This document shows, piece after piece, positions 1-10,838 of a DNA stretch of 11,751 nt (positions within the stretch are counted from its first letter, which is position 1; each line of letters opens with the position of its first letter). Position numbers and translations under genes: made by a program. Below the pieces are notes generated by a model. The model did not search any database, was not told the origin of the DNA, and saw only the letters and a list, made by a program, of their open reading frames with translations. The stretch is taken from assembly GCA_934133155.1 (NCBI GenBank), contig CAKPAT010000032.1, positions 1 through 11,751 of the forward strand, read 5' to 3'. The stretch is from an uncultured Bacilli bacterium. GTDB lineage: Bacteria > Bacillota_I > Bacilli_A > RF39 > UBA660.

Positions 1-6
1 TCTAAA

Positions 7-128
7 CACTGCCATCAGGACTCGAACCTGCACCTACAGCACCCTATGCATTACAAAAAAATTGCTGTAAATATCTAATACTAGATATATATTGTATATG
101 TCGTGCTAACCTGTTACACCATAGCGGT
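7..128 (-). tRNA. tRNA-like gene with internal insertion (anticodon unresolved)
   Basis: On the minus strand the ends fit a tRNA: acceptor ACCGCTA against TGGCAGT (one C-A mismatch), discriminator G, D arm GTGT/GCAC with a loop containing GG, and a T arm with loop TTCGAGT (4 of 5 stem pairs). The body is 122 nt instead of about 73. The extra sequence lies between the D arm and the 3' anticodon strand and holds a perfect 7-bp hairpin (ATATCTA, loop GTAT, TAGATAT) followed by TTAC..GTAA enclosing the decamer ACAGCAATTT. Joining the sequence after GACA to GCATAGG would give a perfect anticodon stem ACAGC/GCTGT with loop ATAGGGT, but the decamer itself can also supply CAGCA to pair with TGCTG, so junctions and anticodon are ambiguous. 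The D arm (GGTGTAAC..GGTTAGCAC) and G73 resemble Gln-type tRNAs. CCA is not encoded. It could be an intron-bearing tRNA or a decayed one. Confidence 0.55.
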
Positions 129-140
129 GATATTATTTTC

Positions 141-253
141 TCTTACATGAACCTCACATGCAAGAATGTAGTTCCCTCTTTTTCTAACTACTTCCACAGC
201 TTTCGCCAATACGATAAAATTTTAATTTTAAGTTCCTTTGGACAAATGTCCAA
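141..253 (-). other. Hairpin-rich spacer between tRNA genes
   Basis: No protein gene or tRNA was recognised here. On the minus strand it starts 1-2 nt after the discriminator base of the CAU tRNA with TTGGACA..TGTCCAA (238-253), then has TAAAAT/ATTTTA, GTAGTT/AACTAC, and finally a 9-bp stem with a 7-nt loop at 141-165 (TCTTGCATG against CATGTAAGA, one G-U pair). None is followed by a U run, so none looks like a terminator. The arrangement resembles the other structured spacers in this array and may guide precursor processing or be a separate RNA. Confidence 0.35.
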
Positions 254-254
254 G

Positions 255-329
255 TGGGTCATATTGGGACTCGAACCCAAGACCGTCCGGTTATGAGCCG
301 GATGCTCTAACCAACTGAGCTAATGACCC
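255..329 (-). tRNA. tRNA with anticodon CAU (Ile2- or Met-type)
   Basis: Cloverleaf on the minus strand: acceptor GGGTCAT/ATGACCC, D arm GCTC AGTTGGTTA GAGC, anticodon stem TCCGG/CCGGA with loop CTCATAA (anticodon at 293-295), T arm TTGGG TTCGAGT CCCAA, discriminator A. One additional T lies between the T stem and the acceptor. The loop CTCATAA and the D-arm sequence resemble bacterial tRNA-Ile(CAU), which needs lysidine modification at C34 by TilS, but elongator tRNA-Met is not excluded. The 60 nt at 264-323 are identical to 1193-1252 in the second CAU tRNA; only the acceptor stems differ. CCA is not encoded. Confidence 0.9.
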
Positions 330-335
330 TGGTTG

Positions 336-480
336 CACCATAAAGCGAAGCCATGCACGACCTCCAATGGATTAGCCTTTCACGATACCTTTTTGCTACT
401 TTTAATTACACAAAACATACGATTCTTGTGGTGCAATATTCTTTCATTTCCAACTAAACAAAGTTGCATACTTCATGGTG
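336..480 (-). ncRNA. Structured RNA, copy 1 (conserved ends, variable interior)
   Basis: The 145-nt minus-strand segment begins CACCATGAAG and ends CTTTATGGTG, which pair over 10 bp including one G-U. Just inside, ATGCA pairs with TGCAT, leaving GGCTTCG unpaired on the 3' side. The second copy at 1021-1182 has the same 3' segment GAGGTCGTGCATGGCTTCG and inner 5' segment AAGTATGCAA, but its closing helix is CACTATAAAG/CTTTATAGTG, so two positions differ with pairing kept. The interiors are unrelated. It lies 4 nt downstream of the 131-nt tRNA-like gene and 6 nt before the CAU tRNA. It recalls the small stable RNAs of unknown function in the phage T4 tRNA cluster; no known family is assigned. 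Confidence 0.6.
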
Positions 481-484
481 CTAA

Positions 485-615
485 CGGATAAGGCAGGATT
501 CGAACCTGCAAAACACGGCTGCCTACTTTTTTCTACTTAAATAAATTGCTGTATGTATAACTAAATATACGTGTATAAAAAAGCCGTTGCGTATGCCATT
601 TTTCGCCACTTACCC
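485..615 (-). tRNA. Leu-like tRNA gene with ~56-nt insertion in the anticodon loop
   Basis: Minus strand: acceptor GGGTAAG/CTTATCC (7 bp, one G-U), D arm of Leu type (GCGA..GGCATA..CGC), anticodon stem ACGGC/GCCGT extendable by T-A, T arm GCAGG TTCGAAT CCTGC, discriminator G. The anticodon loop is 63 nt instead of 7 (520-582). The insertion has a T6/A6 closing run, a small TATA CACG TATA hairpin, and TAC..GTA around the decamer ACAGCAATTT. If TT is joined to TAGGC, the loop becomes TTTAGGC with anticodon UAG (Leu) and G37; this is one of several possible joins. The variable region is only about 5 nt, although Leu tRNAs normally have a long variable arm. Candidate intron-containing tRNA. Confidence 0.6.
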
Positions 616-621
616 ATTTTA

Positions 622-756
622 ATTGGTGGAATTGTGGGAACGCACGGAATCGAACCGTGGCTATAAAGTTTTCAAGACTCCATTACTTAAAATTGCTGTA
701 AGCACTCTCCACCCGATATGCATTTTTTAGCACTACCAAGTCATTCCCATATTTAA
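622..756. repeat. 135-bp exact direct repeat, copy 1
   Basis: Bases 622-756 are identical, base for base by eye, to 1261-1395 (offset 639). The unit contains a whole Ser-like tRNA gene with its insertion plus about 13 flanking bases on the 3' side and 8 on the 5' side. The lack of any difference suggests a recent duplication or ongoing gene conversion. Confidence 0.95.
635..748 (-). tRNA. Ser-like tRNA (anticodon UGA) with D-region insertion, copy 1
   Basis: Minus strand: acceptor GGGAATG/CGTTCCC (7 bp with one G-U), discriminator A, T arm CACGG TTCGATT CCGTG, anticodon stem GGAGT/ACTTT with loop CTTGAAA, anticodon UGA at 672-674, a typical Ser loop. The variable region is about 5 nt, not the long arm expected of tRNA-Ser. 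The D region is abnormal: after a short ACTTGGTAGT comes extra sequence ending in TTAC..GTAA around ACAGCAATTT, so the gene is 114 nt. U8 is missing. A second possible closing helix, GGTGGAG with TTCCACC (625-631), crosses the normal acceptor pairing. Could be an intron-bearing, remodelled or degenerate tRNA. Confidence 0.55.
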
Positions 757-757
757 C

Positions 758-849
758 AAGATGCTATTGATAGAATTGAAGATTTAGTAAGCCACCAAAA
801 GCTTTACATCAACCAAATTAACCAAAATTAAAATTGCTGTAAGCATCTT
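758..849 (-). other. tRNA-sized element carrying the ACAGCAATTT decamer
   Basis: Minus strand ends AAGATGCT and AGCATCTT pair over 8 bp and enclose 92 nt, with G as the next base, similar in size and ends to a tRNA. Inside are TTACAGCAATTTTAA, matching the Ser-like insertion, and a facing TGTAAAGC. No recognisable T arm or anticodon arm is present, so I do not call it a tRNA. It may be a decayed tRNA or another structured spacer. Confidence 0.35.
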
Positions 850-859
850 ATTATTTTTT

Positions 860-941
860 TCACCGTGAAATACTTTTTAGTATGTATAACTGTTAGTATG
901 TATAAAAATGTCATGGAGATATATATGGACATTCACGGTGA
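860..941 (-). ncRNA. Long hairpin RNA directly after tRNA-Gln
   Basis: Minus strand TCACCGTGAA and TTCACGGTGA form a perfect 10-bp closing helix around an 82-nt segment that begins 2 nt after the tRNA-Gln discriminator. The interior has a 13-nt direct repeat TTATACATACTAA in two copies 3 nt apart, and ATGTC/GACAT. The 11-mer GTTATACATAC also occurs in the insertion of the Leu-like tRNA (485-615). The 3' flank is an A run on the RNA strand, so this is not an intrinsic terminator. Its end sequence resembles the CAC(C/T) ends of the two larger RNAs in the array. Confidence 0.45.
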
Positions 942-943
942 TA

Positions 944-1015
944 CTGGGCTAGTTGGATTCGAACCAACGAATACAGCAGTCAAAGTGCTGTGCCTTACCA
1001 CTTGGCGATAGCCCA
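944..1015 (-). tRNA. tRNA-Gln (anticodon UUG)
   Basis: A complete 72-nt cloverleaf on the minus strand: acceptor TGGGCTA/TAGCCCA, D arm GCC AAGTGGTAA GGC, anticodon stem CAGCA/TGCTG with loop CTTTGAC (anticodon at 981-983), variable TATTC, T arm GTTGG TTCGAAT CCAAC, discriminator G. It is the best-preserved tRNA in the array and the reference for the Gln-like gene at 1508-1578. CCA is not encoded. Its anticodon strand ACAGCACTTT is one base away from the ACAGCAATTT decamer found in the abnormal units. Confidence 0.95.
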
Positions 1016-1020
1016 ATGTA

Positions 1021-1182
1021 CACTATAAAGCGAAGCCATGCACGACCTCTATTCTTAAATGAGTTTGGTAATATTTTCTCATATTTGTATTTGTAGTATT
1101 TTACTTCCAAGTGCTAGCATTATCTCAGAAGATGATATTTTTTTACTTCTCAAAAAATAAGAATATTGCATACTTTATAGTG
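1021..1182 (-). ncRNA. Structured RNA, copy 2 (conserved ends, variable interior)
   Basis: The 162-nt minus-strand segment begins CACTATAAAG and ends CTTTATAGTG, a perfect 10-bp closing helix, followed inward by ATGCA/TGCAT and an unpaired GGCTTCG. Further in, TATTCTTA pairs perfectly with TAAGAATA. It shares its 5' and 3' segments with copy 1 (336-480), while the middle is different in sequence and 17 nt longer in total. It starts 2 nt after the discriminator of the second CAU tRNA and ends 5 nt before tRNA-Gln. Function unknown. Confidence 0.6.
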
Positions 1183-1184
1183 AA

Positions 1185-1258
1185 TGGAGCTTTTGGGACT
1201 CGAACCCAAGACCGTCCGGTTATGAGCCGGATGCTCTAACCAACTGAGCTAAAGCTCC
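1185..1258 (-). tRNA. tRNA with anticodon CAU, second copy
   Basis: Perfect cloverleaf of 74 nt on the minus strand: acceptor GGAGCTT/AAGCTCC, D arm GCTC AGTTGGTTA GAGC, anticodon stem TCCGG/CCGGA, loop CTCATAA (anticodon 1222-1224), T arm TTGGG TTCGAGT CCCAA, discriminator A. The inner 60 nt are identical to the tRNA at 255-329, but the acceptor stem is different and here has no extra base. Either Ile2 (lysidine-dependent) or Met; the different acceptors could give the two copies different identities. Confidence 0.93.
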
Positions 1259-1260
1259 TG

Positions 1261-1395
1261 ATTGGTGGAATTGTGGGAACGCACGGAATCGAACCGTGGC
1301 TATAAAGTTTTCAAGACTCCATTACTTAAAATTGCTGTAAGCACTCTCCACCCGATATGCATTTTTTAGCACTACCAAGTCATTCCCATATTTAA
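1261..1395. repeat. 135-bp exact direct repeat, copy 2
   Basis: Identical to 622-756. The repeat borders do not match simple target duplications or terminal inverted repeats, so it is better explained as a segmental duplication of the array than as a mobile element. Confidence 0.95.
1274..1387 (-). tRNA. Ser-like tRNA (anticodon UGA) with D-region insertion, copy 2
   Basis: Same sequence as the gene at 635-748, including the 7-bp acceptor, the CTTGAAA anticodon loop, the short variable region and the insertion with ACAGCAATTT. It lies 15 nt upstream, in the transcribed direction, of the second CAU tRNA. Perfect conservation of the odd insertion in both copies is compatible with recent duplication and does not prove function. 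Confidence 0.55.
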
Positions 1396-1399
1396 TTAT

Positions 1400-1453
1400 A
1401 AAAGGCACTGATATAATATCATCTCAGAAAATTTATTTTTACCAGCACCTTTT
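1400..1453 (-). ncRNA. Stem-loop with G-U pairs specific to the minus strand
   Basis: On the minus strand AAAAGGTGCTG pairs with CAGTGCCTTTT over 11 bp using two G-U pairs; read on the plus strand those positions would be A-C mismatches, so the structure fits a minus-strand RNA. The loop is about 32 nt and can form a small inner stem. UUUU followed by AUAAUU lies at the 3' side, so a weak terminator is possible, though the four Us are themselves paired in this fold. It sits between the UUA-anticodon tRNA-like gene and a Ser-like tRNA. Confidence 0.35.
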
Positions 1454-1507
1454 TTTACTGTAATTATCGTTTTAGAATGACTATATTTTTATAATAATTA
1501 CAATAGA

Positions 1508-1578
1508 CAACCCAAATTGAATTTGAACCAATGCATCCAAAAGTTAAATTGCTGTGTTTACCTCTTGGCTATTGGGTT
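1508..1578 (-). tRNA. Gln-like tRNA with anticodon UUA (possible ochre suppressor or pseudogene)
   Basis: Minus strand: perfect acceptor AACCCAA/TTGGGTT, discriminator G, U8-A9, D loop AAGAGGTAA, T arm ATTGG TTCAAAT TCAAT with one G-U. Aligned with the tRNA-Gln at 944-1015, the anticodon loop is ATTTAAC and the anticodon (1545-1547) is UUA, complementary to the stop codon UAA. Problems: one base is missing after the D loop so the D stem GCC has no proper partner, and the anticodon stem CAGCA/TTTTG has a C-T mismatch and a G-U. G73 favours glutamine charging if it is functional. It could be an ochre suppressor or a decaying gene. It is the first RNA of the array in the transcribed direction. 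Confidence 0.5.
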
Positions 1579-1634
1579 ATATAAGATGGTTTTTATTTTT
1601 TATAAATCTCCATCTATTATATATATTCTCTTTT

Positions 1635-1883
1635 TTAGCTTACTAAAACTGAAATATATTCACAGGCATCGTCATTTAATGTCGGTACAACCAAAAAAAT
1701 TTCTTCTATATAATATAATTCTCTGTTTTGTTGAGTTATATCATTTGTTTTATTAATTGCAATTGGCATATTTTTTATTTTCATATAATCCAACATTTTT
1801 ATCGTTTTATCATAATCTTTAATTACACCGACAGATAATACCGAGATTTTATCTTTTTCTTTCTTTAAGAATTTTATATGCAT
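1635..1883 (-). CDS. Hypothetical 82-aa phage protein
   Basis: I do not recognise this protein. It has a basic, lysine-rich N-terminus (MHIKFLKKEKDK) and alternating hydrophobic stretches (SVLSVGV, YYIEEIFLVV) that could make a small alpha/beta domain; there is no signal peptide, membrane segment or cysteine cluster. The start is supported by AGGATAG about 5 nt before the ATG. It is the last protein gene before the tRNA array and is read in the same direction, so it may share a transcript with it. A plus-strand ORF overlaps it, but the operon direction and spacing favour this strand. Confidence 0.5.
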   Translation of the reverse strand: MHIKFLKKEKDKISVLSVGVIKDYDKTIKMLDYMKIKNMPIAINKTNDITQQNRELYYIEEIFLVVPTLNDDACEYISVLVS

Positions 1884-1939
1884 TTTTACTATCCTATATA
1901 TTAATTCTCCGTTAGATTTAAAAAAGAAACATTTTTACT

Positions 1940-2200
1940 TTATGCCTCATCATCCTTCCTTTTAAAATTTTCACATTTAACATCTAATAAACAAAAATAT
2001 CTGTCTTTCTGTTTAAAAGCATCGTAAAAAGAATATCCATTTTTACATACACTACATGCTTCACTGCATTTCCTTTTTGCTGATTTTGACTCTTCTAATT
2101 CTTTCTTTAACTGAGCATTATGTTGCGCTAAAAACGCTTTTTCTTCTTTTAAAGAGTCAATTTCTTCTTCTAATTCTAAAATCCTTTTTGATTTCCACAT
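1940..2200 (-). CDS. Small coiled-coil protein with cysteine cluster
   Basis: An 86-aa protein with a strong Shine-Dalgarno sequence (AGGAGG, 8 nt before the ATG). Residues about 1-42 are a heptad-rich, charged coiled coil (ILELEEEIDSLKEEKAFL). The C-terminal half has four cysteines in SEACSVCKNG and FCLLDVKCENF, a spacing that could bind a metal ion. Many phages carry short coiled-coil/Cys proteins of this kind, but no function is known to me. Its ribosome binding site overlaps the stop of the preceding small gene, so the two are probably translated from one message. Confidence 0.75.
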   Translation of the reverse strand: MWKSKRILELEEEIDSLKEEKAFLAQHNAQLKKELEESKSAKRKCSEACSVCKNGYSFYDAFKQKDRYFCLLDVKCENFKRKDDEA

Positions 2201-2212
2201 TATAAAATCCTC

Positions 2213-2416
2213 CTAAAATGCGTTTTTTATTGTTGGCACATTACTAGTTTGTCTTAATTGGTTAAAATAAGGAATAGCTGAACTTTTCTGTTGTCCATCT
2301 TAATATCCAGATTCATATACTTCTTCTAATATTTCTTTCAATTTTTCTTTATCAATAACTATGCAATTTCCGTCATTTTCATATTTCTGAAAATCAAAAT
2401 ATACAAGTGGTTTCAT
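2213..2416 (-). pseudogene. Small phage gene interrupted by an in-frame TAA (67 codons if read through)
   Basis: An ATG at 2416 preceded by AAAGGAG opens a 38-residue protein beginning MKPLVYFDFQKYENDG and ending KEILEEVYESGY, then a TAA at 2300-2302. The same frame continues without another stop for 28 residues (DGQQKSSAIPYF.., ending VPTIKNAF) to a TAG at 2213, immediately before the next gene's ribosome binding site. Small phage proteins often have a GY-x-DG motif, with E, K or Q at x; here that position is UAA. It may be a nonsense mutation, a real 38-aa protein, or a readthrough site. A tRNA-like gene with anticodon UUA lies about 720 nt downstream. Confidence 0.55.
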
Positions 2417-2434
2417 ATATTAATTCTCCTTTTC

Positions 2435-3217
2435 TCATAAAATTGGTTCAATATCATGCCATTTTTTATGTTTATTCCAAATTTTCCATTGGATTCTTCC
2501 ATCAAAAATTCTTGTCTCAATATCTTCCACGTCGTCTTGTGCTAATATCCATTTTCTATATTGTTGTACTTCATCATCCGTCTTACCATATACGTTCTTC
2601 CATCTTAGTAGATTTTTATCAATTTGCTCAACAGACCATTCATAATCGGTTAAATTAGATTGACGTATAAATTCTTCAATGTTTTCGTCTACTTCCTTTT
2701 TAGCTTCTTTATATGTACGATAAAGTTTGTGACATAATATAGTTTGATATTCTGGTTTTTTAGTTATAGAAAAAGGATATCTTACAGCTAAACGCCATCC
2801 TTCTTTTGTGATTTCTGTTTCAATCTGTCCTAAGAAAATTTTACTTCTTTCAACAAGGAAACCTTTGTTATATGCTTCTTTTATATTGTCAGGATTTGCG
2901 ATATCGAACATAAAATTCTTTTCTTCATCTGTAAACTCATCATATTTAATTTGATACAATTCTGTGTTATATGTCCATCCTTTAGGCAATTTATGAAATC
3001 TTTCCTCTGTTTGAAATTCATTAATTGAAACACCATTAATATAGTCAGAATAAACTCTTCTACGTTCTCTTGGCTCTAAATAATCAATATACACATAATC
3101 GTTATATTGTTCATCCACCATTCCATAATGAACAGAGTATTCACACCCTCTTTGATGACACCAATATACAATTTCACCTTTTTCAAATCTTTTATTCTGT
3201 GGTGGTTTATTTGCCAT
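2435..3217 (-). CDS. Hypothetical 260-aa phage protein
   Basis: No enzyme family is recognised. Residues about 10-75 (FEKGEIVYWCHQRGCEYSV and following) read like a small beta-barrel domain common in phage hypothetical proteins: a KG-x-x-VYWC strand, then VHYGMV and IDYLEPRERRRV. The rest is rich in charged and aromatic residues and predicted helices, with an IDKNLLRW region and a Trp-rich C-terminus (IQWKIWNKHKKWHDIEP). No membrane segment or signal. The start is supported by GGAG 11 nt upstream. It is followed 18 nt later by the interrupted small gene, whose ribosome binding site lies just after this stop. Confidence 0.7.
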   Translation of the reverse strand: MANKPPQNKRFEKGEIVYWCHQRGCEYSVHYGMVDEQYNDYVYIDYLEPRERRRVYSDYINGVSINEFQTEERFHKLPKGWTYNTELYQIKYDEFTDEEKNFMFDIANPDNIKEAYNKGFLVERSKIFLGQIETEITKEGWRLAVRYPFSITKKPEYQTILCHKLYRTYKEAKKEVDENIEEFIRQSNLTDYEWSVEQIDKNLLRWKNVYGKTDDEVQQYRKWILAQDDVEDIETRIFDGRIQWKIWNKHKKWHDIEPIL

Positions 3218-3238
3218 ATTTAATATTTCTCCGTTTTT

Positions 3239-3490
3239 TTATTTTACCAGGTCGATACCTTCCATAACAGCTCTAGCTTCAAGAACAGCGATATAATCCG
3301 TCATAGCTTTAATCTGCATATTATACGTGCTGCGTGGACAAGTTGGTTCAAAAGTTAATGTACCATTATCCCATTTATCAAGCATTGATTTTAATCCTTT
3401 ATATCTGGTAACTAACTGCCAGTATTCGCCTTTAAAACGTTCTTTATAATCATTACTTAACATCATATTCACTGTTTGTTCTAATTTCAT
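3239..3490 (-). CDS. Small phage protein, crossover/DUF-type hypothetical
   Basis: An 83-aa protein with a good ribosome binding site (AAGGAG, 8-9 nt before ATG). The pattern YKERFKGEYWQLVTRYKGL, MLDKWDNGTLTFEPTCPRS and YIAVLEARAVMEGIDL matches a short helical protein I associate with many Firmicutes phages, where it is annotated only as hypothetical. Two helices flank a short conserved linker; there are no catalytic motifs. It could be a small DNA- or protein-binding factor, but that is a guess from size and composition alone. Confidence 0.75.
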   Translation of the reverse strand: MKLEQTVNMMLSNDYKERFKGEYWQLVTRYKGLKSMLDKWDNGTLTFEPTCPRSTYNMQIKAMTDYIAVLEARAVMEGIDLVK

Positions 3491-3502
3491 ATTCTTCTCT
3501 CC

Positions 3503-3787
3503 TTACTCATTCGTGTAACATGTATTAGTCAGTTTTTTATAAACATCTTCATACATTTCTTGCTTATCTCCGTTATAGGTGTATTCTGCATAGATACCAT
3601 CTCCATTAATTGTAGTCGATACTAAGCATTTGTAATTCTGCAAAGTTTTACACGACCACACAACAAATACATTTGACAAGTCGATAGGTGGCGTTACTGG
3701 TGTATCTGTAAGACCGTTCTTGTTATACCACTCTACCATCTTTTTCTTACATACACTCTGAAAGTGTTCCATTCCTGTAATAATCAT
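3503..3787 (-). CDS. DUF6275-like phage protein
   Basis: A 94-aa protein. The core VFVVWSCKTLQNYKCLVST and the following AEYTYNGDKQEMYEDVYKKLTN match, from memory, the DUF6275 family of short phage proteins of unknown function, normally about 80-90 aa, so it is full length. No metal, nucleotide or membrane motif stands out. The start at 3787 is chosen because AAGGA lies about 10-12 nt upstream; a second Met five codons later (MEHFQS) is possible. Stop and next ribosome binding site overlap closely, as is usual for this operon. Confidence 0.75.
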   Translation of the reverse strand: MIITGMEHFQSVCKKKMVEWYNKNGLTDTPVTPPIDLSNVFVVWSCKTLQNYKCLVSTTINGDGIYAEYTYNGDKQEMYEDVYKKLTNTCYTNE

Positions 3788-3804
3788 AATTATTCATTCC
3801 TTTC

Positions 3805-4200
3805 TTATTTCATCATTTGAAAATAGAAAATTTCTTCACATTTATCACATTTAACGCATCCGCAAACTCCTAAATGTGTTTTTCCAAATCTATAGATATA
3901 ATCAATTTTTCTACTTCCATTATGTTTTTGTTTTAAATGTTGTACGAACCATTCGTCAATCTTCTTTTCTTCCTCTTTTGAAATTGGAAAACCACGATTA
4001 AGGTCTTTCTCCATAGATTCTATTTTTTGTTGTAATCTTTGAATTTCTTCATCTTTATAATGTTCACTTTTTAATTCTTCATTTTGTTCCGTTAATGCTT
4101 TTATTGTAAGCATATCTTCATCATGCGCATTTTTTAATTTACTTAGGCAATCTTCAAAAACTAAATTCTTAAATCTAGTTTCAAATTCAATTTTATTCAT
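3805..4200 (-). CDS. Coiled-coil protein with C-terminal zinc-binding-type cysteines
   Basis: A 131-aa hypothetical protein. Residues about 20-70 are a charged coiled coil (KALTEQNEELKSEH and EIQRLQQKIESMEKDL). The C-terminus has CGCVKCDKCEEIFYF, four cysteines in a tight knuckle-like spacing that could hold zinc. The layout (coiled coil then Cys knuckle) parallels the 86-aa protein at 1940-2200, though the sequences are not obviously homologous. Ribosome binding site GGAGAT 6 nt upstream; the gene starts 10 nt after the preceding stop. Function unknown. Confidence 0.7.
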   Translation of the reverse strand: MNKIEFETRFKNLVFEDCLSKLKNAHDEDMLTIKALTEQNEELKSEHYKDEEIQRLQQKIESMEKDLNRGFPISKEEEKKIDEWFVQHLKQKHNGSRKIDYIYRFGKTHLGVCGCVKCDKCEEIFYFQMMK

Positions 4201-4210
4201 TTTTTATCTC

Positions 4211-4966
4211 CTACTCCAACCATTTATTATCTGCATAATAAAATATAAAAACTATTCCACCAGTAAAAATAATCCAGGATGTCCAAAATAGAATTTGTAA
4301 CCATGTTTCTTTATGCTCTAAATTCTTTACAGTTTCTTCAATGTTCATATCTTTATAAAAACGAGTATTATCTGAAATTGTTTTATTTCTTAAATCTGTA
4401 AAAATAGTACCTGTGTATTTTGTCGCAACTCCGTAATACTTGTATCTTACATGACTTGATACTTTAATAGTTTTTATGAAGTCTGTATTAGGAATTTTTA
4501 TTTTGTTACTATCAAATACAATATTACAAAAGGATATCTGTTTACATTTTTTATTTTCACTTCCGGCATAATCCCAAGTCCAATATGTCTCTGTAGTGTA
4601 ATATGTACGATTACCATTCTTATGTTTTACTTTTTTTGTATGTTTAGTATACTTCTCTTTAATTTTCTCAACATACATATATTTTCCATCAATCTCAGGA
4701 TATGTCACTGTATCAACAGCTTTTAAATCGCCATGAACAAATGCAGTTCCTACATTAGTGTCCATGCCATACTGGAATATGTCTTGATTTTCTATTTTTA
4801 CAGCTTTATCATATTTTTCATTTTTATCTAATTGGCTTTCTGAAATTTTAGAAGAAAACAAAAAGCCAATTAAAATCATTACTGCAATAATAGATACACT
4901 TGCCAAGATTTCACGATATGTAATTTCAAAGTCATCATACTGAAAACCTTTTTTATTACTATACAT
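4211..4966 (-). CDS. Membrane protein with large exposed domain, partner of LemA-like gene
   Basis: A 251-aa protein with a hydrophobic segment near residues 22-42 (ILASVSIIAVMILIGFLF) and another near 224-245 (ILFWTSWIIFTGGIVFIFYY), so both ends are anchored and about 180 residues lie on one side. The middle contains TAFVHGDLKAVDTVTYPEIDGKYMYVEKIKEKYT, a Y/T/W-rich stretch, and SSHVRYKYYG. The GDL-x-x-x-x-x-VTYPEI pattern suggests the TMEM43 / E3-ligase-like (GIDE) membrane families that accompany LemA in some bacteria; this is a recollection and weak. It starts 2 nt after the LemA-like stop with GAGGAC as ribosome binding site, so the two are almost certainly co-translated. Confidence 0.7.
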   Translation of the reverse strand: MYSNKKGFQYDDFEITYREILASVSIIAVMILIGFLFSSKISESQLDKNEKYDKAVKIENQDIFQYGMDTNVGTAFVHGDLKAVDTVTYPEIDGKYMYVEKIKEKYTKHTKKVKHKNGNRTYYTTETYWTWDYAGSENKKCKQISFCNIVFDSNKIKIPNTDFIKTIKVSSHVRYKYYGVATKYTGTIFTDLRNKTISDNTRFYKDMNIEETVKNLEHKETWLQILFWTSWIIFTGGIVFIFYYADNKWLE

Positions 4967-4968
4967 AG

Positions 4969-5520
4969 TTAGTCCTCTTTAAATAGATTTTGAGGAGCAT
5001 CAGATGGTGCACTATAATCTAAATATTCATACTCTTGCTTCTCGTACCCTAAAGTATTTAAAAATAATTTTGTAGGGAATTTTCTTACATATCTTTTATA
5101 TGATTTCACTCGTTTATTATAATTACTTCGGTATTCTGCAAGAAGATTTTCCGTAATAGACAACTCATTCATTAATGTTTTATAGTTTTCATTTGATTTT
5201 AATTCAGGATATGATTCTGCAACTGCGGAAATTGCTGTTGTAACATTTTCAATATTATTTTTTGAATTGCGTCCATCTACAATCGTTTTCAACGTTTCAG
5301 CTTCATGTTTATCATATTGTTTTACACAATCTACTAAGTTATATACTAAATCGACTCTTCGTTTTTCCTGCACTTTAATATCAGAATTTGCAGTATTCAC
5401 GCTTTCTTCTAATGCAATAGCTTTGTTTTGAGAACTTTGGACTCCAAAAATAATCATTAAAATAACCGCAATTATACCCACTCCAATAATAATTGGGATT
5501 TTCCATTTTGTTGTTTTCAT
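4969..5520 (-). CDS. LemA family membrane protein
   Basis: A 183-aa protein with one N-terminal membrane helix (about residues 9-27, IPIIIGVGIIAVILMIIFG) and a helical domain matching LemA: KRRVDLVYNLVDCVKQYDKHE, then ENLLAEYRSNYNKRVKSYKRY, FPTKLFLNTLGY and the closing Y-x-YLDYSAPSDAPQ. Length fits the family (about 180-200 aa). LemA is a widespread bacterial envelope protein of uncertain function, with most of the protein outside the cytoplasm. In a phage it may act late on the host envelope or be a host-derived passenger. Ribosome binding site GAGG, 8 nt before ATG. Followed directly by a second membrane protein, suggesting a two-gene module. Confidence 0.88.
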   Translation of the reverse strand: MKTTKWKIPIIIGVGIIAVILMIIFGVQSSQNKAIALEESVNTANSDIKVQEKRRVDLVYNLVDCVKQYDKHEAETLKTIVDGRNSKNNIENVTTAISAVAESYPELKSNENYKTLMNELSITENLLAEYRSNYNKRVKSYKRYVRKFPTKLFLNTLGYEKQEYEYLDYSAPSDAPQNLFKED

Positions 5521-5525
5521 TTTTA

Positions 5526-5600
5526 TTACCTCTTTTTTAGCTTGAAATTATGGGTGATATACCCTAGAAATTTGATTTGATTTTGTTTTATATTTTTCAT
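5526..5600 (-). CDS. Possible 24-aa peptide ORF in the gap before the LemA-like gene
   Basis: The stop of the radical SAM gene overlaps an ATG as TAATG, and the frame runs 24 lysine-rich codons (MKNIKQNQIKFLGY..) to a TAA just before the LemA-like start. The overlap is typical of translational coupling, but there is no independent ribosome binding site and no recognisable similarity. It may be only a 79-nt leader. Confidence 0.2.
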   Translation of the reverse strand: MKNIKQNQIKFLGYITHNFKLKKR

Positions 5601-6130
5601 TAAACTTTTCTAAAAATAGAATCATTTGCTGGAACAAACTCTTTTTTCCATTCTCTTTGTATTACAGTAAATCCATCCACTTCTTCATCAAACAGATTAT
5701 CAAAGACATATAAACGGTTACTCGGAAGTTTTGTAATTCTTTTGTCTGTTGCTATATAACTCTTAAACACAAAAGCATCTACTTTGTTTTTTATTGATAC
5801 ACTTACACCATCTATATATTCTAAATGTTTCCCTCTAAGAATATACTCCTCTAATTCAATAGCATTAGTATAGACATATACATTTTTAATGTTGGAATAT
5901 TTTGTTCTATAATAACGGGCAATCTCATTTGGATTCGAAAACTTAAATGGTTCACCGCCAGTGATACATAAAGTGTCTGCGTTTTTAAGTTCTTCATCAG
6001 TCACATAAGGAATTTTATTCAAGTCATATTGTTTATTACAACAATCTGGACACCCTCTATTGCAAAGACTTGTCACCATTAGATGAATAATCTTCTTTGT
6101 ATTTTCATTCTTATCGTTTAATTTAACCAT
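5600..6130 (-). CDS. Small radical SAM protein
   Basis: A 176-aa protein with the radical SAM cluster motif C23-x3-C27-x2-C30 (LCNRGCPDCC), which binds a [4Fe-4S] cluster and S-adenosylmethionine, and the usual GGE motif (CITGGEPF) about 35 residues later. It is short, near the size of anaerobic ribonucleotide reductase activase (NrdG) or a minimal QueE-like enzyme, but I see no reductase partner or queuosine genes nearby, so the substrate is unknown. Ribosome binding site AGGAG, 7 nt upstream. It lies just after another, longer radical SAM gene, and both are read with the FETNSSS paralogues. Confidence 0.8.
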   Translation of the reverse strand: MVKLNDKNENTKKIIHLMVTSLCNRGCPDCCNKQYDLNKIPYVTDEELKNADTLCITGGEPFKFSNPNEIARYYRTKYSNIKNVYVYTNAIELEEYILRGKHLEYIDGVSVSIKNKVDAFVFKSYIATDKRITKLPSNRLYVFDNLFDEEVDGFTVIQREWKKEFVPANDSIFRKV

Positions 6131-6142
6131 AATTTCTCCTGT

Positions 6143-7042
6143 TTAATTTTTCTTTCTAATTCGTTTAAACATCTTATCAACCGAATCCAATAATTCATAT
6201 CTTTCATCCATTGGAGCTGTTGAGTTTTTTGCAAATTTTCTTTCTACCATGTCGATATAATAAGTAAATTCTGCATCATCACCCATGTAGAACTCATCCC
6301 ATTCATCTTCCGGCAACAATCTCTTTACTTTTAATTGTTCAATTGCAAGATTATCAAAACTTAAAACAAGGAATTTATGCTTACTAATAATATCTGAAAG
6401 ATTATCATATAGCCATTTTTGATTATTTTCAATTTCAATTTGTCTATTACAAAAATAATCATTACCTCTTCTCAAATGTTTATACCCTAAAATCAGCATC
6501 TTTAAATTATTATTTTCTAATGCAGCAACATCTTCCGGTTTTAAAACTCCATTAATTACATGAATTACAGCGTTTGGATATTGTTTAATTAATGTAATAA
6601 ATTCTTCTGTTGGATTTACCAGTGAAACGCCAAGACCGAAGATAAGTTTTCCTTCGACTAATTGTTTAATAAGTTTTTGTTTCTTTATGAAATGAATTTG
6701 ATTAACAGTAATATTTGCAATAATTTTTCTTTCCTTTAATTTTCGCAAGAAAGGAATTAAATCTGGATGACTAGTTACATCACCTCCACCAATTGCAACC
6801 TCTTGATATGGGTGCAAGGTATTGATGAATTTCTCATTTAAAATATCGCCATGTTTGCCATTAATTGTGCTATTTTCATGACAAAACAGACACCCCATAT
6901 CGCATTGATTGGTAATTTTAATATCCATAGATTCTGCAAAATTTGGAATAAAATCATCTTCTTGAGTTTCTCTAATTTTAGTGCCATTAGAAAACAATGT
7001 TGTAGTAAAATTACCATTTCTGTACATACCTAATAATTTCAT
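6143..7042 (-). CDS. Radical SAM protein
   Basis: A 299-aa protein with C47-x3-C51-x2-C54 (CDMGCLFCHE) and, some 40 residues on, an AIGGGDVTSHPDL glycine motif, both typical of radical SAM enzymes. An ORF starts five codons earlier (ATG at 7057), but that ATG overlaps the previous stop and lacks a proper ribosome binding site, whereas GAGGG sits 8 nt before the ATG at 7042, so I use the latter. The C-terminal third (from about residue 200) is not recognisable and has no clear extra cluster-binding cysteines, so a SPASM domain is unlikely. Substrate unknown; neighbours are FETNSSS proteins upstream and a second radical SAM downstream. Confidence 0.82.
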   Translation of the reverse strand: MKLLGMYRNGNFTTTLFSNGTKIRETQEDDFIPNFAESMDIKITNQCDMGCLFCHENSTINGKHGDILNEKFINTLHPYQEVAIGGGDVTSHPDLIPFLRKLKERKIIANITVNQIHFIKKQKLIKQLVEGKLIFGLGVSLVNPTEEFITLIKQYPNAVIHVINGVLKPEDVAALENNNLKMLILGYKHLRRGNDYFCNRQIEIENNQKWLYDNLSDIISKHKFLVLSFDNLAIEQLKVKRLLPEDEWDEFYMGDDAEFTYYIDMVERKFAKNSTAPMDERYELLDSVDKMFKRIRKKN

Positions 7043-7056
7043 CTTATTTACCCTCA

Positions 7057-7377
7057 TTAACCATCATAACCATAATATCCAAATGATACGACTTTCTCTC
7101 CATTTGGTGTAGTCATACCTGTTTCAAAAGTTTCATATCTATTGCATTCATAATCGAAAAAATCGTCATAAGTAAAATAGTTACCCGAACAATCGTCTAA
7201 ACTACTTTCAATTTCTTCTCTTATTTCATCTGTGATAGGAATTAATTCATCACTCCATCGGTCAAATACCATTTCTCCATTTTTCCACTTCTCATAATCA
7301 GATTCCATGCACATGCAAAGTGAATGTACACTTGATGAATTTGTCTCAAATACTCCACATCTAACTTGTCTTTTCAT
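7057..7377 (-). CDS. FETNSSS-motif phage protein, short paralogue
   Basis: A 106-aa protein starting MKRQVRCGVFETNSSSVHSL, nearly the same 20 residues as the next gene upstream (7390-8070). The N-terminal motif VFETNSSSVHSLC is widely conserved in phage hypothetical proteins that otherwise diverge. The remainder is acidic (E/D-rich, including ITDEIREEIESSLDDC) and ends VVSFGYYGYDG. Ribosome binding site GAGGAG 5 nt upstream. Twenty-four nt of the 5' coding region (7321-7344) are identical to 8014-8037, so the pair arose by duplication. Function unknown. Confidence 0.8.
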   Translation of the reverse strand: MKRQVRCGVFETNSSSVHSLCMCMESDYEKWKNGEMVFDRWSDELIPITDEIREEIESSLDDCSGNYFTYDDFFDYECNRYETFETGMTTPNGEKVVSFGYYGYDG

Positions 7378-7389
7378 GTTTTCTCCTCT

Positions 7390-8070
7390 CTACTTCCTTT
7401 TTGGATATTCATAATCAATAGCATCTTTATTAATTAATCCTGTATTTTTCATATCTTTCCAATAACAATATTCATCACCATCTTGAATAATCACGTATTT
7501 TTTATTTGTAAGAAACTCTTCTAAAGTTATTTTTGTTTCTTCAAGAAAATCACCTAAGAAATAATCATCTGAATATCCGGTGTATGGACAATCAAAGACA
7601 AAATTATTATCCTCATCTTTCCAGTATTCAATTTCGCCAATTTCCCATTCTTTTTCTTTTCTTTCTATATATGTTTCAAAATCTTTTGTAGACATTCTAT
7701 CGCAGTAAGTATGATTATCATCTCCTGCATCATAAATACGTCTTCTCTGTGTTGGTAACTCAATTTTCTTTAAGTTTGGAATATATTTCAATGCTAATGC
7801 GAGTAATTCTTTGTATATATCATCGTTATAATCTCTTACTAATGAAGCACATGCATATTTCCATTTACCACCAAAAGTTCCAATTGCTCGAAATGGACTT
7901 CTTTCAAAATATAAATCTTCACTATCAATTTTCCAAACTCCATCTTTTTTAATATAAATATCATCTAAAATTTCTGATGACAGATATGTATCATCTCTTT
8001 TCATAATACATAATGAATGTACACTTGATGAATTTGTTTCAAATACATTTCTTCTAATTTGTCTTTTCAT
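7390..8070 (-). CDS. FETNSSS-motif phage protein, long paralogue
   Basis: A 226-aa protein beginning MKRQIRRNVFETNSSSVHSL, the same N-terminus as the 106-aa protein downstream, but with a body unlike it: a central mixed region (IPNLKKIELPTQRRRIYDAG) and an acidic, aromatic C-terminus (EIEYWKDEDNNF, DDYFLGDFLEE). No known catalytic signature. The start ATG overlaps the stop of the preceding fragment as TAATG, with AGGTG about 9 nt upstream, so translation is probably coupled. The strict conservation of only the first 20 residues suggests they are a shared recognition or structural segment. Confidence 0.78.
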   Translation of the reverse strand: MKRQIRRNVFETNSSSVHSLCIMKRDDTYLSSEILDDIYIKKDGVWKIDSEDLYFERSPFRAIGTFGGKWKYACASLVRDYNDDIYKELLALALKYIPNLKKIELPTQRRRIYDAGDDNHTYCDRMSTKDFETYIERKEKEWEIGEIEYWKDEDNNFVFDCPYTGYSDDYFLGDFLEETKITLEEFLTNKKYVIIQDGDEYCYWKDMKNTGLINKDAIDYEYPKRK

Positions 8071-8360
8071 TAGATTTCACCTTTCACGATTCTTTCATTT
8101 ACACTTGCTAAAAACTCATTGATATGTTTATAATCAGGATTGTCTGGTAAATCTGTATGTTCTTTTGCATATTCAAAACGAGTTTGATATTTTTCTAAAA
8201 TGTTATAAAATTCTATAGTCGGTAATCCATCTTCATATAAATATTCTCCATTACGAATTGATAGTAAAAGATTACGTTCGTCAGCATATCTGTATGTGAC
8301 AATTTGTTGTTTTTCAAGGATATCAATACTCATCATATATAAACGAACAGTATGCATCAT
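8070..8360 (-). pseudogene. C-terminal fragment of nucleotidyltransferase
   Basis: This 96-aa frame begins MMHTVRLYMMSIDILEKQQI and continues with TYRYADERNLLLSIRNGEY and PDYKHINEFLASVNERI. From memory this is the C-terminal region of the large (about 350 aa) phage and bacterial nucleotidyltransferases of the COG3541 type, where a similar 'HLIRLYLM-IDILEK' helix follows a long middle domain. It overlaps the N-terminal piece (8323-8850) and is shifted by one base. The open frame extends a little upstream of the ATG (about NLLINQVVVKIAKY, to about 8400), consistent with a former continuous gene. It has no good ribosome binding site. Confidence 0.7.
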
Positions 8361-8850
8361 GTATTTCGCTATTTTTACTACGACTTGATTGATTAATAAA
8401 TTCTAAAGATTCTATTTCTGCATTTTTCAATTGACTTAATGCATATCCTTGAAATGTAAGAATGCATTTTTTAGAAAGAAATAATCGTTTATTATTTAAA
8501 AGTTCTCTTCCAATATCTGATATGTACAAATAATGTTCTGGTAACAATCCAAATAATTCTAATACGTTTGGATTATTTGAAGTCAAAAACTGAATAATTT
8601 TATTAAAAGAATATAAAATTGTATCTGTAGATGCATCTGTTACATGCATGGAAGTATCACTTAATAAGATTTCCATTTTGTTGTTTAAAAAACACCCTCT
8701 AATGTCTATATCCGATGTTTCAATATTTATACCATAAGCATAAGAGCCACCTAATCCTAGCAAAATAATATTGTTTCCTAAAAGTGAATTAGTTCTAAGA
8801 AAGTCGTATTCTGGTGATTTCAATTTTTCTTTGATTTCTTCAATTTTCAT
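8323..8850 (-). pseudogene. N-terminal fragment of nucleotidyltransferase
   Basis: A 175-aa frame with the nucleotidyltransferase signature G35-S36 and D47-x-D49 (LGGSYAYGINIETSDIDIRG), the nucleotide- and metal-binding residues of the polymerase-beta superfamily. Family members of COG3541 type run to about 250-350 aa; here the homology stops near ALSQLKNAE and the frame ends in a TGA, while the C-terminal part lies in another frame just downstream. The central domain seems deleted. Ribosome binding site AAGGATG is good, so a truncated catalytic domain could still be made. The ATG overlaps the previous gene's TGA (ATGA). Substrate unknown. Confidence 0.72.
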
Positions 8851-9089
8851 AAATTACATCCTTTTAATATTAATTTACATTTTTGCACATGAGACATGCG
8901 AAACAAACATGATATGCACTGATTTGTTTCATCTGTTAAAAAATAATACTTCCAGGGATAAAATAAACTAGGATTATTTCTAAACATTTTATCTCTAGTC
9001 TTTCTTAAAATTCCTGTATATGTTGTATCGTCAAACAATATTACTTCAACTTTCTTACCTAACATCTGTTCTAATTGTTCTCTTTTCAT
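8847..9089 (-). CDS. Small Sm-like (SH3-barrel) protein
   Basis: An 80-aa protein from the ATG at 9089, chosen over an earlier ATG at 9152 because the earlier one lies well inside the upstream gene; a purine-rich AAGAGAAAAGA precedes the chosen start. The sequence GKKVEVILFDDTTYTGILRKT is the beta-strand pattern of Sm/LSm folds (V-x-V-x-L-D-x-x-x-Y-x-G-x-L), and the C-terminal HVQKCKLIL fits a closing strand. Similar small proteins in phages are uncharacterised. It could bind RNA, but no Hfq-specific KH motif is visible. It overlaps the PAPS-reductase-like stop by 35 nt and the nucleotidyltransferase start by 4 nt. Confidence 0.6.
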   Translation of the reverse strand: MKREQLEQMLGKKVEVILFDDTTYTGILRKTRDKMFRNNPSLFYPWKYYFLTDETNQCISCLFRMSHVQKCKLILKGCNL

Positions 9090-10107
9090 TCTTTTCTCTT
9101 CTTTCCTCACAGAACTGTTTATACATTCTTGTATATTTATATGAGTCTGCAAAAATATGAGTCGCAGCTTTATACAACTGAGGTTCGTATTGCTTTAATA
9201 TTGTTAATTCATATTCAAAATCTCTACCAAAAGGACATCCTGCACATCCAGTTCTCTTCAATCCATACTCTGTATAGCATTTACTATTTTTTATGTTGTA
9301 AGCTTTATTGTAGTCTGTCTTATCTTGATTCTTATACCAGAATAAAGGTCTGTATTCGTCACTGCCTTTTAATTTTTCACTAAAGCAGTTCTTAAAAGCT
9401 GTTGACCTTGTTCCACCTTCAGCTTTTCTTACTCCTACGATACTTAAATCACAATTATGTTTTTTAATGTAATCATGTGCTAATTCTTTTTTAGCATACT
9501 TACAACATTTATTGGAAATAAGAAACCACGGTGGATTTTTAATCATAAACTCTTTCAACCATTTATTTCTGGATATGTTAAAACTACTATTTTCACCTTT
9601 TAGATTACACCACCATAGTAATGCAGCTTTGCATTTAGGGTATTTTTCATACAATATTTCAAAGTCTTTATTGCCATCATTAGCAAAATCAAAATTATGT
9701 TTCTGCAATCTTTCAATATATTCACTTGCCTGTTTACTGATGAATGGTTGTCCATATTGTTTGCAGGATAAAGGAACTGGTTTAATAGCTTTTTCTCTAT
9801 GAATTGTAATATTGTATTTCTTTTCTAAATAGAGAAGATGTTCTTTTGTTTTCTGATACTCAATTCCTGTATCAAACCAAACGTAAGTTATTTTATTATC
9901 TTTATCACATCTCCATACAATATCTAACATTATGTCACTATCTGAGCCACCGGATATACTACATAAGATATTTTTATACTTATCATCATTAATTTTTGAC
10001 CAAGCGACAATTAAATTATTAGGGATAATAAGATTTATTGGACAAGTTTTTAATAATTCTTCAATAGTTTCAGGTTTTTTAAGAAGTAAATTATTTCTTT
10101 CATAGAT
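9055..10107 (-). CDS. PAPS reductase / PP-loop family protein, start codon not visible
   Basis: The frame runs from a stop at 10108-10110 to a TAA at 9055, 350 codons. Near the N-terminus is the PP-loop SISGGSDSD (residues about 50-58 of the open frame), which binds ATP or an adenylylated substrate; later come VWFDTG, LWWCNLKG, IVGVRKAEGGTR and a cysteine motif GCAGCPFG with CCKYAKK upstream, suggesting a metal or Fe-S site. The first internal ATG (9930) falls after the PP-loop, so it cannot be the true start. Upstream codons (for example KKPETIEELLKTCPINL) look like genuine family sequence, yet no ATG, GTG or TTG precedes them in frame. An ATG at 10103 is in the wrong frame by one base. Either a frameshift, a non-standard start, or interruption by the upstream RNA is involved. 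Such phage proteins are often linked to nucleic acid modification. Confidence 0.75.
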   Translation of the reverse strand: MYERNNLLLKKPETIEELLKTCPINLIIPNNLIVAWSKINDDKYKNILCSISGGSDSDIMLDIVWRCDKDNKITYVWFDTGIEYQKTKEHLLYLEKKYNITIHREKAIKPVPLSCKQYGQPFISKQASEYIERLQKHNFDFANDGNKDFEILYEKYPKCKAALLWWCNLKGENSSFNISRNKWLKEFMIKNPPWFLISNKCCKYAKKELAHDYIKKHNCDLSIVGVRKAEGGTRSTAFKNCFSEKLKGSDEYRPLFWYKNQDKTDYNKAYNIKNSKCYTEYGLKRTGCAGCPFGRDFEYELTILKQYEPQLYKAATHIFADSYKYTRMYKQFCEERREKNEKRTIRTDVR

Positions 10108-10183
10108 TTAGATAAAAAAATATCTATTCCTATAAAAGAAATAACATTATATAGAAAGGATATACAAATAATCCTAGGTAAAT

Positions 10184-10197
10184 GGGTTGCGCAACCC
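10184..10197. repeat. Perfect 14-bp palindrome
   Basis: GGGTTGCGCAACCC reads the same on both strands in an otherwise very A/T-rich stretch. No T run follows on either strand, so it is not an intrinsic terminator. It lies between the pseudoknotted RNA and the PP-loop gene and could be an RNA hairpin, a protein-binding site, or an end hairpin of a lost element. Confidence 0.6.
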
Positions 10198-10258
10198 CTG
10201 TAAATAACTAATTAAATGGAAACACATGAAAGAAATATTTCATACGTTATTTTTTAGT

Positions 10259-10471
10259 CAGGACGTTCATTTTCGCCCTGTAGGAACGCTTTTCTCTCAC
10301 AGCTTTACCTGTTTAGGTATGCGGTGTCATTTAATGTCAATAGCACTTTCTAAATCGTTATATTCTCAAATATGAGGTTCAGATTTTGCGTTCTCCGGCT
10401 GACTATACTTTTGAATACAGCCTTCACCTGCCCTACTTCCCATCTCAGGTTTTCAGTTTAATTTACCGCAT
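10259..10471 (-). ncRNA. Large pseudoknotted structured RNA candidate
   Basis: A gene-free stretch (10110-10478) contains this GC-richer segment (75 G/C in the 180 bases 10261-10440, counted by eye). Helices on the minus strand: ATGCGGT/ACCGCAT (10465-10471 with 10319-10325), ACCTG/CAGGT (10446-10450, 10426-10430), GGCTG/CAGCC (10418-10422, 10397-10401), CTCA/TGAG (10365-10376), TACCT/AGGTA (10306-10319) and CAGGGCG/CGTCCTG (10274-10280, 10259-10265, one G-U). GAACGC/GCGTTC (10388-10393 with 10284-10289) crosses the first helix, forming a pseudoknot. A group I or II core, T-box or other named riboswitch was not recognised. It could be a leader or regulatory RNA, an omega-RNA-like relic, or an intervening sequence. 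An AT-rich tail (10108-10258) with a 6-bp hairpin at 10226-10243 and a possible TATAAT (10146-10151) follows. Confidence 0.55.
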
Positions 10472-10478
10472 TTATTAT

Positions 10479-10838
10479 TTAACTTTCAATAGTGATGTAA
10501 GTTTTCTCACCCTCATACCATTGAAGTGAAATCTTATTTATTGAGTCGGTGTTTTGTTTTATTCCGTCGTGAATTACAATAGGTTCACCTCTATATGGAA
10601 TAATAATAACAGCTTCGTATTCTGATGATTCGGCAAAATTGTTAGCAATAACATTATCCATCTTTTTATTTAGACTATATTGTTTTTGTAACAAGTTTTC
10701 CATTCTCGTTTCAATCAATTTAATATCAGTCAAAAGTTTTTCGATTGCTATTCTTGTTGCATCATTTTTTTTTTGCAAAACATCATCTAAATGATTATTG
10801 TTTTTTGTCAAAAATTCTTCTATCTTTTTTGTAAACAT
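10479..10838 (-). CDS. Coiled-coil phage protein
   Basis: A 119-aa hypothetical protein. Residues about 1-65 form a charged, leucine-rich coiled coil (KKIEEFLTKNNNHLDDVL through LIETRMENLLQKQYSL). The C-terminal half is a short beta-rich segment (EYEAVIIIPYRGEPIVIHDG, then ISLQWYEGEKTYITI). No membrane segment or metal motif. The ATG abuts the stop of the DHH gene with no spacer, and GGAGGAG sits just upstream, so the genes are translationally coupled. It could be a partner or structural adaptor; no function can be assigned. Confidence 0.72.
   Translation of the reverse strand: MFTKKIEEFLTKNNNHLDDVLQKKNDATRIAIEKLLTDIKLIETRMENLLQKQYSLNKKMDNVIANNFAESSEYEAVIIIPYRGEPIVIHDGIKQNTDSINKISLQWYEGEKTYITIES

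Follow-up and report, generated by a model that had tools for sequence, protein, structure and literature searches.

Group I introns in bacterial transfer RNA (tRNA) genes are normally above about 200 nt in size. Several other described systems resemble the element reported here, including (i) the short inserts in tRNA genes of Lak megaphages, called enigmatic by their authors (PMC6784885, accessible part of the text); (ii) the permuted tRNA genes of six algae and one archaeon, 34 genes in a 2014 review, in which the 3′ half precedes the 5′ half, the junctions vary and a circular intermediate is opened by RNase P and tRNase Z (PMC3978253, accessible part); (iii) the ROT/TROVE proteins known with RNA ligases in jumbo phages, where RNA repair sets, a Ro60-type platform and, in cells, a tRNA-like partner come together (PMC7824862, accessible part); and (iv) the bacterial Y RNAs, YrlA, of the Ro60 orthologue Rsr (Rfam RF02553), with a basal stem made from the RNA ends, a tRNA-like domain whose parts (T arm, closed acceptor, D arm) are permuted, and a gene beside those of a Ro60-type protein and of RNA repair enzymes (PMC8394870 and PMC7790460, accessible parts). 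The present work concerns a stretch of 11,751 nucleotides from an uncultured Bacilli bacterium (contig CAKPAT010000032.1, positions 1 to 11,751, hereafter the window) and a decamer, ACAGCAATTT, that recurs in its tRNA-like genes. We judge the chances about even that ACAGCAAUUU forms the core of a phage RNA module with the architecture of bacterial Y RNAs, in which the conserved strand UUACAGCAAUUU lies beside a basal stem, P.

By sequence count the window holds seven copies of ACAGCAATTT, at 59, 543, 690, 831, 1329, 1546 and 5229, every one on the minus strand; chance predicts 0.07, and none of 200 shuffles reaches seven. The first six places had been reported by the first-pass annotation of this DNA. 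Six copies lie in the tRNA region, and the seventh, at 5229, is inside a LemA-type gene, likewise seen before as a single further copy in coding sequence. The decamer is the core of a structured RNA module and not a chance repeat. The module comprises a 7-bp stem P (WAGACNN/NNGUCUW-G), two bases, ACAGCAA and a payload, and the hairpin (U)UAC..GUA(A), once described as the usual setting of the decamer, is not the general feature and gives way to ACAGCAA following a covarying stem. This constant layout was read from tRNA clusters in L037, L043 and L044, three of the ten stretches returned by a scan of viral contigs for GCTTACAGCAATTTTAA, with no tRNA seen in the other seven; two further scans enlarged the set. 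A downstream stem of at least 7 bp at a fixed offset accompanies ACAGCAA in 133 of its 255 distinct sites; for about 40 permuted 7-mers, among them one that overlaps the ACAGCAA motif itself, the figure is 346 of 3035. After removal of repeated contexts, a filter for WAG and for G after P keeps 102 of 132 registered stems and drops 30, giving 102 distinct open modules with a 7-bp stem in viral and genome contigs, some of them homologues from related contigs (e.g. L074/L079, L061/L075, L062/L076, L085/L103) and a few probably chance matches.

Across the 102 modules, pair 2 of stem P is A-U in every case and pair 3 is G-C in 101, with pairs 1 and 4-7 varying by compensation. Covariation was measured in unselected matches to the pattern AAGAC NN TTACAGCAA .. 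GTCTTG in genome and viral contigs, the inner two pairs being left free: both N positions pair in 36 of 41 distinct matches, all Watson-Crick, compared with a mean of 9.0 and a maximum of 19 in 10,000 permutations. The five non-pairing matches comprise one in a viral contig and four in genome contigs of other phyla (Shewanella, Acidobacteria, Calditrichaeota and an actinobacterium). When 53 short modules are aligned, 99.7% of cells are paired and 66 cells are changed on both sides (0/500 shuffles as high), with a covariation score of 0.498 versus 0.124 in shuffles; the rows of this alignment were partly chosen for pairing, so the covariation evidence is the 41-match test. Stem P is RNA, and DNA terminal inverted repeats were rejected since the stem covaries. 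In the genome collection the strict pattern finds 15 stretches, 11 with a paired stem, of which ten are labelled with Firmicutes groups (Ruminococcus, Clostridia, Bacilli, Erysipelotrichaceae, Clostridium etc.) and one with Gastranaerophilales; these 11 are presumably prophages or phage contigs.

The module occurs in several settings: within tRNAs, which it interrupts; around whole tRNAs; as the closure of circularly permuted tRNA genes; with an anticodon arm as its sole payload; or standing alone. The earlier suggestion of short tRNA introns captures one part of this range, in that excision of the insert gives a tRNA recognized by ARAGORN for unit 1 of the window (Pro AGG) and for five closed inserts elsewhere, and is too narrow for the rest. 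The homologous inserts in tRNA genes of related phages, for which the same annotation had proposed a search, do exist, in different tRNAs of several viral contigs. The closed inserts in normal-order genes, of about 44-57 nt, are those of unit 1, of L050 (Pro(GGG), Asn(GUU) and a GAA tRNA), of L073 (GAA) and of L119 (Asn). Each of the six splits the 5′ anticodon-stem strand, and with the exon pieces brought together all 5 bp of that stem pair (by reading in L119). No Rfam group I match was obtained in the window or in ten relatives, and with inserts of this size a group I intron was rejected.

Long payloads number 32, including three outside the WAG and G filter that were added by hand. Permuted tRNAs account for 17, or about 15 if two pairs of near-duplicates between contigs are each counted once; in these the acceptor 3′ strand comes first and its matching 5′ strand begins 0-11 nt later. 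The two acceptor strands pair at 6 or 7 of 7 positions in all 17, as opposed to 14 of 272 swapped combinations; UA (positions 8-9) continues the 5′ strand in 12 of the 17, and NCCA is encoded in seven. The other long payloads comprise four normal-order tRNAs, two with a T arm lacking a matched acceptor strand, and nine in which the search found no usable T arm. The modules L117:1679, L098:3107 and L112:5347 carry tRNA pieces that lack a D arm or consist of a T arm only.

The joining of exons was examined in 17 genes, six closed and 11 permuted, with junctions chosen and exons joined by hand; ten interrupted units stand outside this set (window units 2 and 3, L037:404 and 1583, L043:10087, L050:4718, L074:9257, L079:6481, L085:951 and L103:6734). 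ARAGORN calls a tRNA in all 17 joined genes and in 16 of 110 with swapped exons; for the 11 permuted genes the calls rise from none unjoined to 11 after joining. The joined identities are Pro and Asn (three each), Phe and Gly (two each), Val, Lys, Ile, Arg, Leu, a His anticodon and Tyr. In nine permuted genes whose junction lies at or in the anticodon loop, positions 27-31 pair perfectly with 39-43 in eight and at four of five positions in one, and none of 72 anticodon stems swapped across the junction is perfect. U33 with a purine at 37 is present in 13 of the 17 joined loops, and four depart from it. Position 33 is C in the joined permuted genes L037:1204 (Gly GCC) and L075:1847 (Asn AUU), which may reflect imperfect junctions or unusual loops. 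Judged from sequence, joining would make sense as tRNA restoration, with splicing as its putative route. In three permuted genes, L075:10759 (Val), L104:3564 (Arg) and L115:1326 (Ile), positions 27-30 of the 5′ exon recur (as AUAC, AUAA and AUUC) in the linker that precedes the anticodon loop, so that the 3′ part can form a short anticodon arm of its own before joining.

Association with a Ro60-like protein suggests that the module serves as a ribonucleoprotein handle. A protein with DUF2828/DUF7788 adjoins the modules of G012 and G007, and L043 encodes a DUF2828 protein at 8455-9960. Of 18 module records searched, 15 have a PF11443 match; so have two more bearers of modules, G036 and G041, and G039, which was filed as module-free when DUF2828 was found there and then yielded two modules by the covariance model (E 3.5e-6 and 9.9e-6). 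In all, DUF2828 is present in 18 of 21 module records and in none of 15 others, these being mostly shorter and the partial model matches in G009 and G033 being counted as chance; the module records lacking it are G006, G015 and G026 (53, 137 and 44 kb). G015 has no covariance-model match and was counted as a module record by pattern scans, and Lak-A2, which has variant modules by reading, no model match at E 0.001 and a weak, distant DUF2828 match, stands outside both counts. The Fisher value of 1.3e-6 refers to 18/21 versus 1/16, with Lak-A2 then among the module records and G039 among the others, and association counts of this kind ignore kinship among the phages. In most large records the model scan scored 147 candidates, which makes the module counts there lower bounds.

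The PF11443 match lies on the same strand as its nearest module in 18 of 18 records, at less than 300 bp in nine (60, 70, 92, 104, 213, 213, 228, 274 and 292 bp) and at less than 4 kb in 14, including five at 0.7, 1.5, 1.8, 2.1 and 3.8 kb; the remaining four are at 6, 7, 13 and 22 kb. Of these distances, 292 bp rests on a weak match (E 3.2e-4), and 60 bp on one of E 1.7e-4 with a strong match 136 bp off. The predicted fold of the DUF2828 protein matches Ro60 best, Foldseek ranks 1-6 and VIA ranks 1-9 all being TROVE/Ro60. Pfam TROVE itself (PF05731) is found in 0 of 17 records, and a Pfam TROVE protein was rejected as the partner.

RNA repair enzymes accompany the module as well. T4-type RNA ligases are encoded in 12 of 16 module records, by PF09414 in 11 and PF09511 in four, and a seventeenth record searched, G003, has neither; among 19 other records, in a comparison that covers PF09414 only, this family is found in G004 (no module), in G041 (a module record) and in Lak-A2. 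In G012, a polynucleotide kinase and ligases of the Rnl1 and Rnl2 types are all encoded no more than ~8 kb from the DUF2828 gene, and in G029 the two ligases are adjacent. Large phages often carry repair enzymes, so the linkage is supportive only. RtcB, found in 0 of 17 records, was rejected as the ligase.

We put at about evens the proposal that the module is a Y-RNA-like handle for a Ro60-like particle and, inside tRNAs, a short intron closed by RNA repair enzymes. We infer binding first: the phage DUF2828/DUF7788 protein would hold stem P and the conserved strand, leaving the tRNA or tRNA-piece payload at the far end. The module would interrupt tRNAs as a short intron, at junctions 28/29 to 30/31 of the 5′ anticodon-stem strand or else at 31/32 or 33/34. 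Where the gene has normal order, P would be a closed hairpin and the tRNA ends would be free; in permuted genes the transcript ends would form P and a short linker would close the acceptor end, to be opened by RNase P and 3′ processing via a circular intermediate. Module-bearing tRNAs would thus be precursors, cut at the exon edges and sealed by the phage polynucleotide kinase and T4-type ligases, and the copies carrying an anticodon arm only would probably be decoys or docking RNAs in the same particle. Splicing is favoured because of the encoded NCCA, the exact 7-nt loops and the exon complementarity. Still more tentative, and somewhat on the doubtful side, is the fuller picture in which the phages run their own tRNA splicing, a Ro60-like ribonucleoprotein and T4-type ligases assembling interrupted and permuted tRNAs, with the same module displaying stand-alone anticodon arms as decoys; the tRNAs would perhaps in this manner be kept safe from host anticodon nucleases until needed.

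The strongest rival is a Y-RNA-like particle without splicing, in which the Ro60-like protein would hold the module with its payload still attached, displaying anticodon arms and tRNA bodies to host anticodon nucleases as decoys or competitive inhibitors, or to repair enzymes as a docking site. The short modules favour display over splicing and weigh against the intron proposal: 27 of 73 short payloads hold a canonical anticodon arm without a tRNA body (a hairpin of 5 bp and 7 nt in which position 33 is U and position 37 a purine), against a mean of 3.9 and a maximum of 10 in 300 shuffles, with Lys UUU commonest, followed by Pro, Asn and Ser. The strict hairpin test finds no anticodon arm in the other 46. 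Genomic linkage and predicted fold fit the unspliced particle equally, and the tRNA-like domain of YrlA is itself unspliced, a role as competitive inhibitor of an anticodon nuclease having been suggested for it (PMC7790460, accessible part). On the other hand, the NCCA of seven permuted genes and the 7-nt loops formed only on joining have no obvious use in a decoy, and the closed inserts break their host tRNAs; we consider a particle without splicing unlikely, though a serious contender.

An improbable alternative is that the module splices or cleaves itself as a small RNA, or enters tRNAs as a mobile RNA element, with the protein incidental. The compact conserved core, the covarying stem, the closed and open versions and the several insertion positions in tRNAs would suit such an element, but the modules match no Rfam ribozyme family, the linkers are variable and the strong DUF2828 linkage would need another reason. 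More improbable again is a cis-acting RNA that regulates the DUF2828 operon and the neighbouring tRNA transcripts: it would explain why the module lies upstream, on the same strand and less than 300 bp from the DUF2828 match in nine of 18 records, yet per genome many modules lie at a distance from that gene, sit within tRNAs or have a -10-like motif of their own, which is found just upstream in 14 of 102 modules against five in a control stretch. Decaying tRNA pseudogenes that share a repeated fragment through recombination, a possibility already raised for the window, would accommodate its poor units 2 and 3 and Gln-like tRNA and the exact duplications, and are nevertheless highly unlikely given the compensatory stem changes and the canonical arms and acceptor stems retained in many phages.

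The minus strand of the window illustrates several of these settings, and its units do have the tRNA-like acceptor stems and T arms first ascribed to them. Unit 1 (8-128) is a tRNA-Pro(AGG), tRNA positions 1-72, interrupted at 29/30 in the 5′ strand of the anticodon stem; its exons, read from the sequence, are 99-128 and 8-49, and ARAGORN on the joined product calls tRNA-Pro(agg). In its 49-nt insert (50-98), AUAUCUA (82-88) pairs with UAGAUAU (71-77), followed by UU ACAGCAA (62-70), a stem obtained by reading and by minimum-energy fold, with the whole unit folding no better than shuffles (z -0.05). Unit 2 (486-615) is tRNA-like, with an insert in the anticodon loop and a weak 5-bp stem; ARAGORN gives Lys(ttt) with an intron, and enumeration of excisions yields many possible anticodons, none convincing. 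Unit 3 (636-748) resembles Ser(UGA) with an insert between acceptor stem and anticodon arm, where a D-arm-like hairpin lies immediately 5′ of UUACAGCAAUUUUAA, and unit 4 (1275-1387) is its exact duplicate. The four units with the decamer are present as first described, but the copies at 690 and 1329 are not independent: 622-756 and 1261-1395 are an exact 135-bp duplication of the interrupted Ser-like tRNA, which leaves five independent non-coding copies. The two tRNA-Met genes of the window are near duplicates too. In the tRNA region ARAGORN reports only Met, Gln, Met and a poor 'Stop' tRNA, to which unit 2 is added when an intron is allowed.

The copy at 831, previously listed as nearby, lies outside any tRNA and proves to be part of a complete stand-alone module at 757-849: AAGAUGC (843-849), UU, ACAGCAA (834-840), a 69-nt payload, GCAUCUU (758-764) and G. 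A cmsearch model built without the window scores it at 49 bits (E 1.1e-10). The model came from stand-alone modules, and the other window copies score weakly: unit 1 at 18.2 bits (E 0.0098), units 3 and 4 at 16.9 (E 0.02), unit 2 at 11.1 (E 0.65) and a degenerate Gln-like tRNA at 13.7 (E 0.14). The latter (1509-1578, minus; Rfam tRNA 26.9 bits, below cut-off) has the decamer in its anticodon-stem region and no clear module, and the decamer may be coincidental there.

Elsewhere in the window, 8323-8850 (minus) encodes the RNA-repair-associated nucleotidyltransferase RlaP (PF10127, E 3e-10), possibly belonging to the same pathway as the module; DUF2828 is absent from the ten window proteins searched against Pfam. 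No relatives of the 260-aa protein of the window were confirmed in viral contigs; the examined stretches of the radical-SAM relatives L001-L005 show no tRNAs, and the covariance model finds no module in the records of L001, L003, L004 and L005. The inter-tRNA spacers 330-484 and 1017-1184 (minus) share the pairing ends CACYAURAAGUAUGCA .. GGUCGUGCAUGGCUUCGCUUUAURGUG, fold with z -1.7 and -2.3, have no Rfam match at gathering score and are possibly another structured RNA. In other contigs, a ROOL RNA (RF03087, 303 bits) occupies L062 1581-2169, in the same tRNA cluster as several modules, and a hepatitis delta virus (HDV)-like ribozyme match below threshold (35.3 bits vs 44) lies near modules at L074 5365-5430.

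Compared with the described systems, the module stands apart in each case. The Lak tRNA inserts resemble it as short inserts in phage tRNAs, but by reading the three compared (L026 1735-1894, L027 7337-7523 and L033 15484-15648) share a common hairpin, AAAUUAAACU and a nested tRNA-like part without anticodon arm, with the ACAGCAA core absent; they are a second, different insert family, and a Lak-type intron was rejected for the module on this difference in core. Variant stand-alone modules seemingly lie near Lak tRNA clusters (L026 2194-2321, L031 near 2492 and 2571, L027 near 9702, minus), with stems UGAGAGUC/GACUCUUG and UGGGAGGC/GCCUCCUG; in one of them a Lys-type anticodon loop can be read, and the scores are weak, below the model threshold. 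In the accessible part of PMC7824862, the jumbo-phage ROT/TROVE proteins are treated without a phage RNA partner, an ACAGCAA module or a permuted tRNA, and the DUF2828 protein is 13% identical over aligned residues to the Ro60 of Thermus phage phiLo, whose structure is solved (PDB 9L5Y, partial record). Searches of open-licence literature yielded no report of the module, of phage permuted tRNA genes or of DUF2828 as a Ro60 relative, and PMC6409571 has no mention of intron, permuted or split.

The algal and archaeal permuted genes depend on a bulge-helix-bulge (BHB) motif and the eukaryal/archaeal splicing endonuclease (PMC3978253, accessible part), whereas those found here lie in viral contigs, with another motif and T4-type ligases; a 3′ half upstream of the 5′ half makes a complete tRNA in 11 of 11 genes joined by hand. 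If the splicing account is true, permuted tRNA genes and protein-guided tRNA splicing would here appear for the first time in bacteria or their viruses, as a tRNA-making route not known from either. Since ARAGORN calls none of the 11 before joining, the module explains phage tRNA genes missed by annotation and offers a short sequence signature for finding more; a wider class may exist that takes in some of the enigmatic tRNA inserts described from huge phages.

With respect to YrlA, a basal stem from both ends is predicted in the 102 open modules with a 7-bp stem, the RNA ends themselves being predictions; a tRNA-like domain is found in many modules, not all (17 permuted and four normal-order of 32, an arm in 27 of 73); and the Ro60-family gene nearby, Ro60-like by predicted fold, is the DUF2828 gene of 18 of 21 module records. 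YrlA proper was rejected: RF02553 gives two matches, both below the gathering score (37.4 and 31.3 bits vs 69), and with 37.4 as the best the module is not filed as YrlA. Unlike YrlA, the module has another stem and core, keeps the anticodon arm, bears payloads as small as an anticodon arm and as large as a full tRNA, is found within tRNA genes as a closed hairpin too, and has DUF2828, not Pfam TROVE, as its partner. If the proposal is right, this noncoding RNA family would link three fields hitherto treated separately: Y RNA-Ro60 particles; the splicing and permutation of tRNAs, reported from eukaryotes and archaea; and the defence of phages against anticodon nucleases. It is possible that the particle is of the Ro60-Y RNA kind with a new range of bodies and a new splicing system inside.

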